A model generated the notes under the pieces. The model had not been told where the DNA came from. It saw nothing but the letters and a program-made list of their open reading frames with translations, and ran no database searches. Shown here piece by piece: positions 29,202 through 36,981 of a DNA stretch of 64,000 nt (within the stretch, counting starts at the first letter, position 1; every line of letters begins with the position of its first letter). A program made the position numbers and the translations under genes. Source of the DNA: Arthrobacter sp. AQ5-05 (GTDB lineage: Bacteria > Actinomycetota > Actinomycetes > Actinomycetales > Micrococcaceae). The stretch spans positions 186,001 to 250,000 of the forward strand of contig NZ_QMKQ01000001.1 of assembly GCF_003287975.1 (NCBI RefSeq), in the 5' to 3' direction.

Positions 29202-30203
29202 CTAGGAGCCGACCAGCGAGGAAGCCTCCTGGCGGGTGTCGCCGGAGCTGGCGATGTGTTCCAGCGCCTCCGGGATCGGCAGGCCCTTCTTGCGCATGGC
29301 CCCGGCCCACAACCGGCCCGCACGGTACGAGGAGCGCACCAGCGGACCGCTCATGACGCCGATGATGCCCAGCTCTTCGGCTTCCTGCTGCAGCTCCACG
29401 AATTCCTGCGGCTTGACCCAGCGCTCGACCGGGTGGTGGCGCTCGGTGGGGCGCAGGTACTGGGTGATGGTCAGCAGGTCGCAGCCCGCCGAGACAAGGT
29501 CCTTGATGGCCTCGGAGATCTCCTCGCGGGTCTCGCCCATGCCCAGGATCAGGTTCGACTTGGTGATCATGCCGTTGGCGCGGCCCTGCGTAATGACATC
29601 CAGGGAGCGGTCGTAGCGGAACGCCGGGCGGATTGACTTGAACAGGCGGGGCACCGTCTCGAGGTTGTGCGCGTAGACCTCCGGGGCGGAGGCGCAAATC
29701 TCGTCCAGGTACTCGGGCTTGCCGGAGAAGTCCGGGATCAGCAGCTCGACGCCGGTGCCCGGGTTCAGCTGGTGGATCCGCCGAACCGTTTCGGCGTAGA
29801 GCCAGGTTCCCTCGTCCTCGAGGTCGTCGCGGGCAACGCCGGTCACGGTGGCGTAGCGCAGGCCCATCTTCTTCACGCTCATGGCGACCTTGAAGGGTTC
29901 GGCGCGGTCGACGGCCTGGGGCTTGCCGGTGTCGATCTGGCAGAAGTCGCAACGGCGCGTGCATTCGGAGCCGCCGATGAGGAAGGTTGCCTCCTTGTCT
30001 TCCCAGCATTCAAAGATGTTCGGGCAGCCTGCTTCTTCGCAGACGGTGTTCAGGCCCTCGGACTTGACCAGCTTCTTCAGCTCCACGTACTCGGGGCCGA
30101 TGTTGATCTTTGCCTTGATCCACTCGGGCTTGCGCTCCACTGGCGTGGCTGAGTTTCGCTGCTCAATGCGCAGCAGGCGGCGACCTTCGGGGGCGGCACT
30201 CAT
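29202..30203 (-). CDS. lipA: Lipoyl synthase
   Basis: Radical SAM enzyme that inserts two sulfurs into protein-bound octanoyl groups. 333 residues. Auxiliary cluster cysteines [12 protein letters not shown], radical SAM triad [11 protein letters not shown], and the C-terminal SSYRAG segment whose Ser is a cluster ligand in LipA. Its start overlaps the lipB stop by 4 nt (ATGA), so translation is coupled to lipB. The target proteins are the E2 (sucB) and glycine-cleavage H-type lipoyl domains; sucB lies 3.5 kb away. Confidence 0.97.
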
Positions 30204-30880
30204 GATCGGACTCCTTCGGGGGTGGTAGCCGTCAACGACACAATCGGGCTGAGCAGGGCTTCTAGTTCCTGCTCGATCCGGTCGAGGACATCGGCTGGAG
30301 TGACGGTGGTTCCAGTTTCTTCGCTGATGCTTGTGACACCGGCGTCGGTGATTCCACAGGGGATGATTTGTGAATAGGGTGCAAGGTCGTTGGAGCAGTT
30401 CAGTGCGAAGCCATGCATGGTCACGCCGTGGTCGACGCGGATGCCGATCGCGGCGAGCTTGCGGTCCTGCCCGCCGTTGGTTCCGGCAACCCAGACGCCG
30501 CTGCGCCCCTTGATGCGGACGGCGTCGATGCCGTAATCCAACGCAACATTGATCAGGGCTTCTTCGAGGGTCGTGACGTATTCGCGGATGCCCTTCATGT
30601 CCAGCAACCGCACGATCGGGTAGCCGACCAGCTGCCCCGGGCCATGCCAGGTGAGCTTGCCGCCGCGATCGACATCGATCACGGGGGTACCGTCGACCGG
30701 CAGGTCTTCCGGTTCGGTACGGCGTCCGGCCGTGTAAACGGCCGCATGTTCCAGGAGAAATACAACGGGGCCTGCCACACCTTCGGTCACGTCATGGTGA
30801 ACGCGGCGCTGCATATCCCACGCGATGCGGTAATCGACCAGCTCCGGGGCATGGCCAATTCGCTCGAATTTGATGGTCAT
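30200..30880 (-). CDS. lipB: Lipoyl(octanoyl) transferase
   Basis: Moves octanoate from acyl carrier protein to lipoyl domains, the first step of endogenous lipoate synthesis. 226 residues. Conserved: [34 protein letters not shown], and [21 protein letters not shown], which contains the catalytic Cys; a catalytic Lys is expected in the preceding KLAAIGIRV. The ATG at 30880 is 7 nt after a TACTGT -10, so the lipB-lipA-DUF4191 operon may start leaderless. Confidence 0.96.
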
Positions 30881-30985: not shown

Positions 30986-32617
30986 ATGGAATTCAATGAA
31001 GAGCCGTTGGCGTTCCCGCGGATCGCGGGATACCGCACGCTCCGCCATCTGGATGAGGGCTCGGGCAGCAGCGTCTGGGTCGTTGAGGACGACGCGACAC
31101 ATGTCGAACTGGCCGTGAAGATCCTCGGCAAGGATGCTCCCGGGAATGCCGTCGCCACGGAAGCCCTGGACCTGTGCCACGAGTTTCTCGTCGAAGCGCT
31201 CGGGATCCTCCAGACCTCCCTGGGCCCCGGGATCCTGATGGAGTACTGCCCCGCAGGTTCCGCTGCACAGGTCGTGGCGGTGCGCGGCCCGCTGAGCGTG
31301 GGGGAGAGCATCACCGTGGTCGCTCCCATCGCCGCGGCACTGGCGTATCTGCATGCGCACGGACTGACCCACGGGGACCTGTCTCCACGCAACATCCTGT
31401 TCACGGCCGAGGGCAAGCCAAAGCTGGGCGACTTCGGGACACACCGCGTGGTGGGCCAGTCACCGGGAGACCTTGGCACCAAGGGCTTCTGTGCCCCGGA
31501 AACTTCCAGGGATCCCGAATCCGGGCAGCTCGAACCTGCGCGCGACGTCTACGCCCTGGCCGCGTGCACCTGGTACCTGCTCACCGGGCGGCCACCCAAC
31601 GCGACCGCCAACAGGGTCCCGTTGGGGTCCATGGTTCCGGAAGTCAACGACGAGTTCGCGAAGTTGCTGGAGCTGTGCCTTGACCAGGACCCGGCGAAGC
31701 GACCCAGTGCCGACCAGTTCGGGCAACGGATCTTCGTCGCCGGTGAACCGCTTCCCGTGGAGTTGAGCGAGGCGATCGAGCCGGAGGCCCTCAAACACAT
31801 GCTCACCACCCGGCAAGGACCGGTGTCCGGCGGGATCCTGGGCGGGCGCCGGAACAGGGGGAATCCGACGGCCGCAGACAGGGAACTGTTGAGGGAACGC
31901 AAGGCGCAGATCAAGGCGCAGCAAAAGCCTGTCCCGCGCCGGCTTCGGGCCACGCTCGGCCTCGCTGGGGCTGCGGCGGCCGATGCGGCAATCGGCGACG
32001 GGGAACGGCAATGGGCCCAGGATCACCGGATCCACGGCTTGAAGCGCGGGAATCGCCGGATCGCGGCGGCCGTGGCCATCGGGGCGCTGTTGGTGGCCGT
32101 GGCGGCCGGGGGAGCGGGCCTGCTCAAGGCAAGTGGCGACCTTGCGGCCGCAGAGCCGCCGCAAGGTTCGGCGCCCGCCACGACATCCTCCCCCGCAGTC
32201 GATCCCGCCCCGCGGGGGATGGCCGAATCGTCCCGGGAACTCATGCTGGTGGTGGCCGACCTGGCTGAGCGCCGTGACAAGGGATTGATGAGCGGGAAAA
32301 TGGAGCAGCTCAGGGACGTCCACGCTGCCGGCTCGCCTGCGCTGGAGGTGGACGGAAAAGTCGTGGCCCGGATGCATGGGCTCGGTCTGCACCTGGAGGC
32401 CTTGGAAACGCGGCTGAGCGACGTCGAGGTGCTGTCGGGAAACGAGCCGGGAGAAACGGTTCTCGAAGCCCTCAGCGTGCAAAGCGGCTACCGCTACGTC
32501 GATGCCAAGGGCAAGACGGTGGTGGACGCCAAGAAGGCCGACAGTCAACGGGTGCGCATGGTCTTGCGGTTCGCCGAGGGATCATGGCGGATCTGGCAGG
32601 TGACCGCCGCGGGCTGA
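30986..32617 (+). CDS. Membrane Ser/Thr protein kinase with atypical catalytic loop
   Basis: 543 residues. Kinase domain about 14-260: Gly-rich loop EGSGSSVWVV, Lys45 in ELAVKIL, catalytic loop HGDLSPRNILF (His129-Asn136), DFG at 152-154, CAPE in place of APE. The catalytic loop lacks both the Arg of HRD and the Lys two residues after the catalytic Asp (Ser133 instead), but Asp131 and Asn136 remain, so it could be active or a pseudokinase. A juxtamembrane linker with a Lys/Arg/Gln-rich stretch leads to one transmembrane helix (about 359-380). A 160-residue extracytoplasmic domain follows, ending in a VRMVLRFAEGSWRIWQV strand pair. No PASTA repeats. Confidence 0.85.
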   Translation: MEFNEEPLAFPRIAGYRTLRHLDEGSGSSVWVVEDDATHVELAVKILGKDAPGNAVATEALDLCHEFLVEALGILQTSLGPGILMEYCPAGSAAQVVAVRGPLSVGESITVVAPIAAALAYLHAHGLTHGDLSPRNILFTAEGKPKLGDFGTHRVVGQSPGDLGTKGFCAPETSRDPESGQLEPARDVYALAACTWYLLTGRPPNATANRVPLGSMVPEVNDEFAKLLELCLDQDPAKRPSADQFGQRIFVAGEPLPVELSEAIEPEALKHMLTTRQGPVSGGILGGRRNRGNPTAADRELLRERKAQIKAQQKPVPRRLRATLGLAGAAAADAAIGDGERQWAQDHRIHGLKRGNRRIAAAVAIGALLVAVAAGGAGLLKASGDLAAAEPPQGSAPATTSSPAVDPAPRGMAESSRELMLVVADLAERRDKGLMSGKMEQLRDVHAAGSPALEVDGKVVARMHGLGLHLEALETRLSDVEVLSGNEPGETVLEALSVQSGYRYVDAKGKTVVDAKKADSQRVRMVLRFAEGSWRIWQVTAAG

Positions 32618-32666: not shown

Positions 32667-33104
32667 CTACTGGGTCAGGCTGGCATCAAGGGTGATGGAT
32701 GGAACGGCTGCCAGGGCGGCGGACACCGGACAACCCACCTTGGCTGCTTGCGCGTGGGTTTGGAATTCTTCATCGGTCAGGCCCGGAATGGTGGCCTTGA
32801 GTGTCAGCCGGATTTCGCTGATCTTGGCGCCGTCGCTGGTGTCGAAGTCCACCTCCGCGGTGGTTTCCAGCTTCTGGGCAACGTGGCCGGCACCCTTCAA
32901 GATGTTGCTCAGCGCCATCGAGAAGCACGAGGCATGGGCCGCGGCAATCAATTCCTCCGGGCTGGTCTTGCCCTCGGCTGCCTCGGTGCGGGCACGCCAG
33001 GTAACCGGGAACGTGCCGATGCCAGAGGTCTCGAAGGTGGTTTCCCCGGTGCCGGAGGCCAGGTCGCCGCTCCAAACGGTGCTTGCGCTTCTTGTGAATG
33101 CCAT
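32667..33104 (-). CDS. OsmC/Ohr-family peroxiredoxin
   Basis: 145 residues from ATG 33104 (AAGGAG ribosome-binding site). The two OsmC cysteines are visible: peroxidatic Cys in AAAHASCFSMALSNIL and resolving Cys in AAKVGCPVSAALA. It reduces organic hydroperoxides, with lipoylated protein and lipoamide dehydrogenase as known reductants for this family; sucB and lpdA lie just downstream on the map. The SPEELIAAAHASCF arrangement is closer to OsmC than Ohr. Monocistronic. Confidence 0.88.
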   Translation of the reverse strand: MAFTRSASTVWSGDLASGTGETTFETSGIGTFPVTWRARTEAAEGKTSPEELIAAAHASCFSMALSNILKGAGHVAQKLETTAEVDFDTSDGAKISEIRLTLKATIPGLTDEEFQTHAQAAKVGCPVSAALAAVPSITLDASLTQ

Positions 33105-33206
33105 GGTGATGACTCCTTGAATCTGCAACGAGACGAAGGCGAGCGCCTTCTAGGCCCATCCTAGGGGCACCGGGTGGCGAACCAAAGGGACCCGTTTAAC
33201 GACGAA

Positions 33207-33282: not shown

Positions 33283-33633
33283 CTAGACCCAGAGGGTTGC
33301 CACGGCGATGGCGATCAGGGCGGTGCCGCCGGTTCCGTGGGCCAGCCCGGTGGGAACCACAAGTCCGTTCTTGATCTTCTTGCGGCCCAGCAGGGCTGCG
33401 ACGAAGACACCGATGGCCAGCAGGAGCTTGACGCCGATCTTGAAGTTGTTCACATCAAGATCACGCATCTCGAGCATGCCGACGAGAAGCAGCCCGGTCA
33501 CCAGCTGGGCGATGGCGCCATACCACTGCCAGATGTTGATTGTCGGGGTCTTGAAGTTGGCGAGCCAGCCGCCAAAGATCGCTGCTGCACCTAAAACGTG
33601 CAGGAATACCAGGAATGCAGTCAAATAGGTCAT
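33283..33633 (-). CDS. Small four-helix membrane protein, unknown function
   Basis: 116 residues with four predicted transmembrane helices (about 2-22, 35-54, 66-86, 97-115). The first helix has LVFLHVLGAAAIFGGWL. The second follows IWQWYGAIAQLVTG. It resembles the DUF2269-like or CopD-like small membrane proteins in general layout, but I cannot assign a family. The ATG is 6 nt after TAGGCT, so the mRNA is probably leaderless. Confidence 0.75.
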   Translation of the reverse strand: MTYLTAFLVFLHVLGAAAIFGGWLANFKTPTINIWQWYGAIAQLVTGLLLVGMLEMRDLDVNNFKIGVKLLLAIGVFVAALLGRKKIKNGLVVPTGLAHGTGGTALIAIAVATLWV

Positions 33634-33751: not shown

Positions 33752-35455
33752 CTAGAGACCCAGGTCTGCCTGGAAGGCACCTTCTTCAAGGCGCGCCTTC
33801 AGCGTCTGCAGGAAGCGACCTGCATCGGCGCCGTCGACCAGACGGTGGTCATAGGTCAGCGACAGGTACATCATGTGGCGGATGGCGATGGTGTCGTCCC
33901 CGTCGGCGCCGGTCACTACGACCGCACGCTTCACGATGGCGCCGGTGCCCAGGATGGCAACCTGCGGCTGGTTGATGATCGGGGTGTCAAAGAGCGCGCC
34001 GACCGAACCGATGTTCGTGATCGAGAACGTTCCGCCGGACAGCTCGTCCGGGCCGATCTTGTTGTTGCGCGTGCGCGAGGCCACGTCGGTGATCTTGGCG
34101 GCCAAGCCGGCAAGGTTCAGGTCTCCGGCGTTGGAGATGACAGGAACCAGCAAGCCCTTGTCGGTGTCCACCGCAATCGCCAGGTGCTCGGCGTTGTGGT
34201 AGGTGATCTCCTGCTTGGACTCGTCGTACTCGGCGTTCAGCTTCGGGTGCTGCTTCAGCGCCTCGGCCACGGCCTTGAGGATGAACGGCAGGAAGGTGAG
34301 CTTGGAGCCGTTGACGGCAGCGAAGTCGTTCTTGGCGGCATTGCGCAGCTTGGCGATGCGCGTCATGTCGACCTCGTGCACCTGGGTCAGCTGGGTGGAG
34401 GTTTCCAGCGACTCGCGCATGCGGCGGGCGATGACCTGGCGGATGCGCGGAGCCTTCTCCACGGTGCCGCGCAGCGAGGAGGCAGCAACCGGGGCTGCGG
34501 CCTTTGCTGCAGGTGCGGCTGCGGGGGCCGAAGCTGCAGCAGGGGCGGTCTTTGTCGCGGCTGCGGCATCGATGACGTCCTGCTTGCGGATACGACCGCC
34601 AACGCCGGTTCCGGTCACGGTGGACAGGTCGACCTTGTTCTGGTTGGCCAGACGGCGAACCAGCGGGGTGACGTAGCCGTCGTTGCCAGCTGCAGGTGCT
34701 GCGGCTGCCACTGGGGCAGTCGGTGTGGCCGGAGCCGCGACCGGGGCAGGTGCGGCAACGGGAGCCGGGGCAGCCACCGGGGCCGGGGCCGCGGCAGGTG
34801 CCGGAGTGGCGGCCGGAGCGGCGGGTGCTGCCGGGGCAGCTGCGCCTGCGGAACCGATGACGGCCAGGACGGCGCCGACCTCGGCGGTCTCGTCTTCCGG
34901 AACGCGGATTTCCAGCAGGACGCCGGCGACCGGGGACGGAACCTCGGTGTCGACCTTGTCCGTGGAAACCTCGAGCAGCGGCTCGTCAACGGCAACTTCT
35001 TCGCCCACGGCCTTGAGCCAGCGGGTGACGGTGCCTTCGGTCACGGATTCGCCCAGTGCCGGGAGGGTGATCTCGGTGCCGGATGCAGGTGCCGCAGCGG
35101 CGGCCGGAGCTGCCGGAGCGGCTGCCGGAGCTGCTTCTGCAACCGGGGCCGGTGCGGCGGCCGGGGCCTCGACCGCCGCGGGTGCCTCTGCGGCCGGGGC
35201 GGCAGCGGCCGAACCCGAGCCATCGCCAATGCGAACCAGTGCGGCTCCAACTTCGGCGGTCTCGTCTTCGGCGACGAGGATTTCCTCGATGACGCCGGCT
35301 ACCGGCGAAGGGATTTCGGTGTCAACCTTGTCGGTCGAAACCTCCAGCAACGGCTCGTCGACCTCGACGCGGTCGCCGACCTGCTTGAGCCAGCGCGTAA
35401 CGGTGCCTTCGGTGACGCTTTCACCCAAAGCGGGCAAGTTCACGGTTTCAGACAT
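33752..35455 (-). CDS. sucB: Dihydrolipoyl acyltransferase (2-oxo acid dehydrogenase E2), two lipoyl domains
   Basis: 567 residues. Two tandem lipoyl domains with lipoylation sites Lys43 and Lys167 (each in STDKVDTE), joined and followed by long Ala/Pro/Val linkers with repeated APAPVA units. A peripheral subunit-binding domain follows ([19 protein letters not shown]), then the catalytic domain ending with [15 protein letters not shown], which holds the active-site His and Asp. It is probably shared between pyruvate and 2-oxoglutarate dehydrogenase as in other Actinobacteria; no E1 is encoded nearby. Ribosome-binding site TAGGAGAAC. It is separated from upstream lpdA by a strong terminator. 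Confidence 0.92.
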
Positions 35456-35601: not shown

Positions 35602-36981
35602 CTAACCGTGCAACGGCTTGCCGGCCAGGGCCATTGCGGCCTCGCCAAGCGATTCGTTCTGCGTCGGGTGTGCGTGGATGAGCTGTGCCACATCCTCCGG
35701 GTAGGCTTCCCAGTTCACGATCAGCTGTGCCTCGCCGATCTGTTCGCCGATGCGGCCACCGATGCCGTGAACGCCCACGATCGGGCCGTTCTTGACGCGA
35801 ACCATCTTGATCAGGCCGCTGGTGCCCAGGATGGAGGACTTGCCGTTGCCGGCAAGGTTGTACTCGGTGACCTCGATCTGGTCGTCACCGAACTTGGCCT
35901 TGGCCGCCGGCTCGGAGTAGCCAACCGAAGCGATCTCCGGTTCGCAGAAGGTGACCTTCGGGATGTTGATGTCCTCGACGACCACCGGGTTCAGGCCGCC
36001 GATTTCCTCTGCGACGAAGATGCCGTGCTGGTAGCCGCGGTGCGCAAGCTGGACGCCCGGGACGATGTCGCCGATGGCGTAGATGTTGCCCACGCCGGTG
36101 TGGCAGCGCTCGTTGGCGAGCACGAAGCCGCGGTCCATCGGGATGCCCTGCTCTTCGTAGCCCAGGTTCGCGGTGACCGGGCCACGGCCAACTGCAACCA
36201 GCACGATCTCGGCCTCGAGGACCTTGCCGTCGGCCAGGGAGACCTTGACGCCGTTGGCGTCCTGCTCGACCTTTTCGAAGAAGACGCCGGTGTTGAACTT
36301 GATGCCGCGCTTCTTGAAGGCACGCTCCAGGTTCTTGATGATCGAGGGATCCTCGTTCGGAACCAGGGAGGGCAGGCCCTCAACGATGGTCACCTCGACG
36401 CCGAAGGACTTCCACACGGAAGCGAACTCGACGCCGATGACGCCGCCGCCGAGCACGATGGCGCTCTTCGGAAGGGTGTCCATGTTCAGCGCCTCGGTGC
36501 TGGTGAGGATGCGTCCGCCGATTTCCAGGCCAAAGGTCTTGGACTCGGAGCCGGTGGCGAGGATGATGTTCTTGCCCTTGTAGGCGACACCGTCAACGTC
36601 GATGGTGTCCTGGGAGACCAGGCGGCCGTTACCTTCGATAACGGTGACCTTCTTCATCTTCAGCAGGCCGGTCAGGCCCTTGTACTTGCCGGCGACAATA
36701 TTGTCCTTGTAGCTGCGCACGGCGCCGAGGTCAATCGACTCAAGGGTGGTGTTGATGCCGTACTTGGCACCTTCGCGGGCATTCTCGGCCAGTTCGGCCG
36801 AGTGCAGGTACGCCTTGGTGGGGATGCAACCCCAGTGCAGGCAGGTGCCACCAAGCTTGGCCTTCTCAATCAAGCCGACGGTGAAACCCAGCTGGACGGC
36901 GCGCAATGCTGCCGAGTAGCCGGCGGAACCGCCGCCGAGAATGAGGATGTCGAATTCTTGCGCTGCTGCCGATTCGGCCAC
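35602..36981 (-). CDS. lpdA: Dihydrolipoyl dehydrogenase (E3)
   Basis: FAD flavoprotein that reoxidises dihydrolipoamide in 2-oxo acid dehydrogenase complexes. 459 residues. N-terminal FAD site ILILGGGSAGYSAALRA, redox disulfide Cys47/Cys52 in GGTCLHWGCIPTKA, NAD site VLGGGVIGVEFASVW, second FAD motif NIYAIGDIVPG, and the C-terminal His-Glu pair in HAHPTQNESL. GTG start with GAGGGAG ribosome-binding site. It lies between pepA and sucB. An 8-bp hairpin sits in its leader. Confidence 0.97.
   Translation of the reverse strand: MAESAAAQEFDILILGGGSAGYSAALRAVQLGFTVGLIEKAKLGGTCLHWGCIPTKAYLHSAELAENAREGAKYGINTTLESIDLGAVRSYKDNIVAGKYKGLTGLLKMKKVTVIEGNGRLVSQDTIDVDGVAYKGKNIILATGSESKTFGLEIGGRILTSTEALNMDTLPKSAIVLGGGVIGVEFASVWKSFGVEVTIVEGLPSLVPNEDPSIIKNLERAFKKRGIKFNTGVFFEKVEQDANGVKVSLADGKVLEAEIVLVAVGRGPVTANLGYEEQGIPMDRGFVLANERCHTGVGNIYAIGDIVPGVQLAHRGYQHGIFVAEEIGGLNPVVVEDINIPKVTFCEPEIASVGYSEPAAKAKFGDDQIEVTEYNLAGNGKSSILGTSGLIKMVRVKNGPIVGVHGIGGRIGEQIGEAQLIVNWEAYPEDVAQLIHAHPTQNESLGEAAMALAGKPLHG

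Follow-up and report, generated by a model that had tools for sequence, protein, structure and literature searches.

Active protein kinases that lack the Arg of the HRD motif (non-RD kinases) are known. PknG, an active non-RD kinase, controls the phosphorylation of OdhI (PMC8546545), and in M. ulcerans it is described as the sole non-RD kinase (PMC4238996). The non-RD kinase EFR autophosphorylates, and phosphorylation of its activation loop is reported to matter whereas its own catalysis does not (PMC8463890). Non-RD kinases are thought to be independent of activation-loop phosphorylation and tend to have weak activity in vitro (PMC8463890; see also PMC9403797). A pseudokinase is commonly defined by loss of the beta-3 Lys, the HRD Asp or the DFG Asp (PMC12599244).

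We analyzed a gene in a stretch of 64,000 nucleotides from Arthrobacter sp. AQ5-05 (the window). Judged from its sequence and predicted structure, the gene product is probably a non-RD Ser/Thr kinase that is capable of catalysis, is anchored in the membrane, belongs to a distinct actinobacterial clade and carries an extracytoplasmic NTF2-like sensor. The gene and the features of its kinase part are as follows.

30986..32617, + strand: non-RD Hanks-type kinase gene (kinase, transmembrane helix, NTF2-like ectodomain), ATG start, 543 aa
31031..31729, + strand: kinase domain, residues 16-248 (Pfam PF00069; PknB fold, Z 27)
31118..31120, + strand: beta-3 Lys45 (ELAVKIL), Lys in 88/92 rows
31142..31162, + strand: short alpha-C region, residues 53-59, with V56 in the canonical Glu column (pLDDT <50 at 51-60)
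31370..31393, + strand: catalytic loop HGDLSPRN, residues 129-136, without the HRD Arg and the loop Lys (sequence and alignment)
31430..31438, + strand: DFG, residues 149-151 (D149 in 92/92 rows)
31493..31501, + strand: APE motif, residues 170-172 (most members at the level of the order or class have Asp-Pro-x)

The kinase domain is of the Hanks type by profile, fold and residues. Pfam Pkinase (PF00069) matched residues 16-248 at E 6.5e-28 and 98 bits (cut-off 31.7), and the kinase core superposed on M. tuberculosis PknB (5u94; VIA-align) with Z 27.0 and rmsd 2.3 over 236 residues, at 25% identity. The beta-3 Lys (K45), D131, N136 and D149 are all present. The top NCBIfam model was the MAD6 antiphage kinase, with 79.8 bits over the kinase stretch against a cut-off of 460, so the protein is unclaimed by any named family. 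Structure prediction, which had been suggested as a check, gave this PknB-like fold together with an NTF2-like C-terminal domain. The full-length AlphaFold2 model (11 sequences) had a mean pLDDT of 67.9; it was good in the kinase core and the C-terminal domain, and poor at residues 51-60 (pLDDT <50) and in most of 275-412. In comparisons with four relatives, dN/dS of the kinase domain was ~0.13, 0.10, 0.16 and 0.12, indicative of purifying selection.

We compared the active site to those of relatives in three sets. The 90 Micrococcaceae loci, each from a distinct genome, were the 30 best matches of the family search plus 60 chosen across genera from among the matches listed, so that this sample leans to better matches. 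The alignment of 92 non-identical Micrococcaceae rows adds further related loci, drops identical rows and includes the contig-cut protein L031. Thirty members from other families, at the level of the order or class, were aligned in addition.

The original prediction held that HRDLK had become HGDLS, with loss of the Arg and the Lys, and that Lys45, Asp131, Asn136 and the DFG were kept. Both statements were correct for the window protein, and nearly all of its relatives keep the beta-3 Lys, the catalytic Asp and the DFG Asp. The window loop is HGDLSPRN where HRDxKPxN is usual; Gly130 replaces the Arg and Ser133 occupies the position of the loop Lys, and the protein is not an RD kinase. Genus-level relatives have HGD[LV]SPRN, and all 92 Micrococcaceae rows fit H-x-D-[VLI]-[SATG]-[PA]-x-N. 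In these rows position 130 is Gly (82), Ser (6), Leu (2), Arg (1) or Ala (1), and position 133 is Ser (70), Ala (17), Thr (3) or Gly (2) and never Lys. By locus, the motif was HGD in 80 of the 90, HSD in 6, HLD in 2, HAD in 1 and HRD in 1. One protein, L073, has HRDISPSN, an apparent regain of the Arg without the Lys. The 30 order- and class-level members had neither the HRD Arg (0) nor Lys133 (0). Pooling the clade (122 rows), the HRD Arg was missing from 121 and the loop Lys from all 122. Both residues were present in all 15 HRD kinases used for comparison, a contrast that is descriptive and not a test because those 15 were sorted by that motif. A sequencing slip or chance as the origin of the loop is ruled out, since the relatives share it.

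The rest of the catalytic machinery was conserved, even though the kinase domains of relatives are only 35-63% identical to that of the window protein. H129, D131, N136, D149, D187, W196, R239 and P240 were invariant in the 92 Micrococcaceae rows. Among the 30 order- and class-level members, K45, N136 and D149 were each found in 30 and D131 in 28, with Asn in the other 2. That is, across the 122 pooled rows K45 was kept in 118, D131 in 120, and N136 and D149 in 122 each. A Thr at the P+1 position is a feature of Ser/Thr kinases; P+1 Thr165 was present in 88 of the 92 rows and in 23 of the 30 more distant ones, 2 others of which had Ser.

Other parts of the active site varied. The alpha-C Glu column held Glu in 70 of the 92 rows and Glu (27) or Asp (3) in the order- and class-level members. 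The Glu was absent from all 14 rows of the window genus and its nearest relatives (V, A, G, I, T or D in the window genus), from 5/5 rows of genus g23, and from L078, L099 and L108. E59 might replace it as the partner of Lys45, although E59 is missing in some members of the genus. Arg135 lies where the tyrosine-kinase loop HRDLAARN has the Arg of its "AAR" motif. It was found in the same 14 rows and in L096 (15/92 in all), and in one of the 30 order- and class-level members (L158). Position 135 is Gly in 59 of the 92 rows, and Gly or Ala in most of the clade. With the alpha-C Glu lost and Arg135 present, the active site in the window genus has moved further away from the canonical form than that of most clade members.

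Several relatives departed from the common pattern in ways of their own. L078, L099, L106 and L108, all from Micrococcaceae, have Arg or a gap at the beta-3 Lys and keep the catalytic Asp, the Asn and the DFG Asp. Two class-level members, L166 and L171, have HGN for HGD; without the catalytic Asp they are predicted pseudokinases within a mostly intact clade. With K45 lost in 4/92 rows and HGN in 2/30, the clade does give rise to likely pseudokinases. Genus g23 (L050, L051, L065, L067 and L091), which also lacks the alpha-C Glu, has DFQE for DFG, and the Glu of DFQE might pair with the beta-3 Lys. In the APE motif, Ala is replaced by Asp in 23 of the 30 order- and class-level members and the Glu is present in just 3; Arg239, the usual partner of that Glu, was found in all 26 of these rows that had a letter there.

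The kinases with this loop form a clade. In a maximum-likelihood tree of 64 kinase domains, 49 clade rows were separated from the 15 HRD kinases by a split with support of 100/99, and the window kinase fell on the clade side. Genus g23, represented by one row only, was sister to the window genus. The HGD-type loop is an ancestral character of this clade and not an accident. The other four kinases in the window genome that scored over the cut-off are all HRD-x-K.

Using a kinase-domain profile, we found clade members in at least 30 of 99 genomes of the order (assigned by score and motif, and in most cases also by their neighbours or place in the tree), a count that leaves out second-tier matches including G212:C1 (152 bits) and G286 (145 bits). 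The same profile found members in 20 of 148 genomes of the class. A search of the phylum at E 1e-45, which may miss weaker members, found them in 5 of 149 genomes, and 5/5 belonged to the order of the window genome. Every locus above 165 bits in the order and class set had HGD, HAD or HGN. Scores do not separate the clade cleanly from HRD kinases: of 11 class loci at 146-155 bits, 10 were HRD-x-K kinases and one (L177) was a short clade member adjoining lipB-lipA, and the order locus L155 fell in the clade by the tree at just 146 bits. We rejected the notion that the gene is present in the whole family; all 197 of 197 Micrococcaceae genomes gave a match, but the matches include ordinary paralogues. 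In genera g3, g6 and g14 the best E-values were only 1e-12 to 1e-22, like those of the window genome's own HRD kinases, so the clade gene seems to be absent there or too diverged. In the open-access literature that was searched, a scope outside which most subscription papers fall, we found no description of this clade. The novelty lies in a clade marked by a loop, an architecture and a locus peculiar to it.

The part of the protein beyond the kinase has two features.

32060..32116, + strand: predicted transmembrane helix, residues 359-377 (hydropathy 2.33 from residue 359; model helix 359-375)
32222..32614, + strand: NTF2-like domain, residues 413-543, probably extracytoplasmic (AlphaFold2 model of residues 410-543 alone, pLDDT 92.7)

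The best full-length Foldseek match of the window protein was the CaMKII holoenzyme, which directed attention to the hub of CaMKII, a domain with an NTF2-like fold. The model of residues 410-543 has the alpha+beta fold of the NTF2-like superfamily. It superposed on the intermembrane-space domain of ARC6 (Z 14.4, rmsd 2.5, 127 residues), on Tim44 (Z 11.7, rmsd 3.0, 131 residues) and on the CaMKII hub (Z 10.7, rmsd 3.2, 112 residues). The original prediction had described a sensor domain unlike that of PASTA kinases, and the fold bears this out. There was no Pfam PASTA match at E up to 0.01, and the NCBIfam PASTA kinase model gave 70 bits (cut-off 450). Searched against Pfam to an E of 1, the ectodomain had no matching family; that of one relative (L021) gave a match to DUF6318 with E 0.02, which is below the cut-off. 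An ectodomain profile, iterated on the very set against which it was scored, hit 89 of the 90 proteins from Micrococcaceae, all 19 from the order and 12 of the 14 from the class, and none of the 15 HRD kinases. The members missed were L031, which is cut by the contig end, and two class-level proteins with short reading frames (344 and 276 aa). A hydrophobic stretch lies between the kinase and the ectodomain in 86 of the 89 Micrococcaceae relatives that have the domain. Hydropathy suggests a topology with the kinase inside and the NTF2-like domain outside.

The kinase gene lies among genes for lipoate and 2-oxoacid dehydrogenase functions.

29202..30203, - strand: lipA (NCBIfam lipoyl synthase)
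30200..30880, - strand: lipB, divergent neighbour of the kinase gene (NCBIfam LipB)
32667..33128, - strand: OsmC-like gene (Pfam OsmC)
33283-33633, - strand: small protein of 116 aa, between the E2 and OsmC-like genes (no Pfam match at E up to 0.01)
33752..35455, - strand: sucB-type lipoyl E2 of a 2-oxoacid dehydrogenase (TIGR02927, 805 bits)
35602..36981, - strand: lpd, dihydrolipoyl dehydrogenase (TIGR01350)

A look at the neighbourhood of orthologues had also been proposed as a check. In 87 of the 90 Micrococcaceae loci lipB adjoins the kinase gene on the opposite strand. LipA was seen in 85 of the 90 and SucB in 44, the flanks being short where SucB was counted. The OsmC-like gene adjoins the kinase gene in 12 loci of the genus (L009-L020) and in 17 of the 90 overall. 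The gene for the 116-aa protein recurs in 36 of the 90. Outside Micrococcaceae, 19 of 25 order loci were viewed with widened flanks (up to 6 kb); 17 had SucB, 17 a TIGR01777 oxidoreductase and 12 LipB. Among class-level loci, with flanks of at most 1.5 kb, a LipB or TIGR01777 gene was found at 9 of 14 clade loci and at 0 of 10 HRD loci. This steady neighbourhood suggests control of lipoate or of a 2-oxoacid dehydrogenase. It may also be merely inherited gene order, and gene order alone is insufficient as proof. Given its conservation, a search for substrates would best begin with lipoylation, the lipoyl-carrying E2/E3 enzymes or a regulator of these.

The catalytic loop has lost its two helper residues and the genus does not conserve the alpha-C Glu, which could mean that the protein binds ATP and signals by conformation instead of phosphotransfer, as an ATP-binding pseudokinase or allosteric scaffold. 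Some relatives lack K45 (4/92) or the base Asp (2/30), and EFR, also non-RD, is reported to signal without its catalytic activity (PMC8463890). However, Asp131, Asn136 and Asp149 are present in 92 of 92 rows, and a scaffold would be unlikely to need all three across the family. In addition, the window kinase keeps the beta-3 Lys, the HRD Asp and the DFG Asp, and so is not a pseudokinase as defined in the literature (PMC12599244). The original prediction raised a pseudokinase as a possibility; with the defining residues intact here and in relatives (K 88/92, D131 92/92, D149 92/92) it is unsupported, and we consider the scaffold unlikely. A kinase with tyrosine or dual specificity, in which Arg135 stands in for the missing Lys, is very unlikely. 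In tyrosine kinases the Arg of the AAR motif is described as forming a hydrogen bond with the tyrosine of the substrate (PMC4771162), and Arg135 does occur in the genus and in a few other rows, but most clade members have Gly or Ala there and the P+1 Thr is kept in 88/92. As a Lys substitute for the clade as a whole, Arg135 is ruled out by the Gly in 59/92. The HGD motif had also been likened to that of aminoglycoside and sugar kinases. The likeness is real for the motif, and the models of Kdo kinase and Bud32 gave weak matches of 15.8 and 23.3 bits, under their respective cut-offs of 21.3 and 125, but it goes no further: no aminoglycoside kinase matched in Pfam at E up to 0.01, Pkinase was well above its cut-off, the fold is that of PknB, and the P+1 Thr and alpha-F Asp are retained. 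A small-molecule kinase is extremely improbable, and we rejected it on profiles and fold.

With the beta-3 Lys, HRD Asp and DFG Asp intact and non-RD kinases known, we favour an active but atypical kinase. The loop shared by the clade and the usual neighbourhood of lipoic-acid genes also make a working regulator likelier than a dead enzyme. Against competence stand the missing alpha-C Glu in the genus, the weak model at residues 51-60 and the likely pseudokinases in the clade. The window kinase may have altered specificity or low activity. If the kinase is active, Lys45 of the cytoplasmic kinase domain would bind ATP, Asn136 and Asp149 would position Mg, and Asp131 would be the catalytic base. 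Because the HRD Arg is lost, switching may be independent of activation-loop phosphorylation. A single transmembrane helix would link the kinase to the extracytoplasmic NTF2-like domain, which would bind a ligand or self-associate and so set kinase activity.

A link to lipoylated dehydrogenases is possible. In a special case of the active, atypical kinase, the protein would substitute for PknG on the OdhI/GarA switch of oxoglutarate dehydrogenase. The window genome has no PknG_TPR match, whereas the control, C. glutamicum, matched. (PknG was scored with PF16918; PF16919, the PknG rubredoxin model, matched nothing, the control included.) The same genome has an OdhI-like FHA protein, for which the best NCBIfam model is OdhI at 160 bits (cut-off 200), and the kinase gene is near the E2 and lpd genes. 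This OdhI/GarA-like protein (L184; G000:C1:84776-85237) has ETST-ETTG near its start. In the class sample, the 20 genomes with a clade kinase and the 38 with PknG did not overlap (0). In contrast, 5 of the 30 clade genomes in the order sample have PknG too (G210, G227, G242, G257 and G283), all in family f15, and the presence of each kinase tracks families. For these reasons we do not claim replacement of PknG, which was tested and is unsupported. Of 59 order genomes, 57 have an OdhI-like protein, whether or not they carry the clade kinase; together with the five genomes that have both kinases, this leaves the OdhI link as a candidate only. GarA is also reported to be controlled by PknB (PMC12321487). 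We consider substitution for PknG quite unlikely. A wider proposal for the active kinase, rather improbable as a whole, is that the clade consists of one-pass receptor kinases, permanently without the HRD Arg and loop Lys, that use NTF2-like sensing to control lipoylation or the adjacent lipoyl-dependent dehydrogenases, an input apart from PknG-OdhI.

From a single unusual motif, these results lead to a defined clade of kinases that share an architecture and, across several actinobacterial families, a conserved gene neighbourhood. If its members are active, then a Hanks-type kinase can stay functional through long evolution with neither helper residue in its loop, and the clade would offer a testable entry to the coupling of outside signals with lipoate-dependent central metabolism.

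The window protein resembles several known systems in part. Like PknG it is a non-RD actinobacterial kinase (PMC4238996), but it has a predicted transmembrane helix and no match to the PknG TPR or rubredoxin models (Pfam, E up to 0.01). It shares with the plant receptor kinase EFR the missing HRD Arg and the layout of a single-pass receptor (PMC8463890); the ectodomain of EFR is a leucine-rich repeat and that of the window protein is NTF2-like. In bacteria, NTF2-like DUFs that lie outside the cell and are linked to a protein kinase inside it have the same layout and are proposed to be ligand sensors (PMC3924330), although the ectodomain here matched none of the Pfam families, even at an E of 1. 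The top NCBIfam model was that of MAD6, a kinase from the MADS antiphage system, yet the score was far under its cut-off, and the window locus has lipoate and E2 genes, not defence genes. PknB and other PASTA kinases have the same kinase fold, N-terminal kinase, one transmembrane helix and C-terminal outer domain; the window protein differs from them in its NTF2-like ectodomain and in having HGD-x-S for HRD-x-K. CaMKII also joins a kinase to a C-terminal NTF2-like domain, and its hub is cytoplasmic, whereas in the window protein a predicted transmembrane helix lies between the two.
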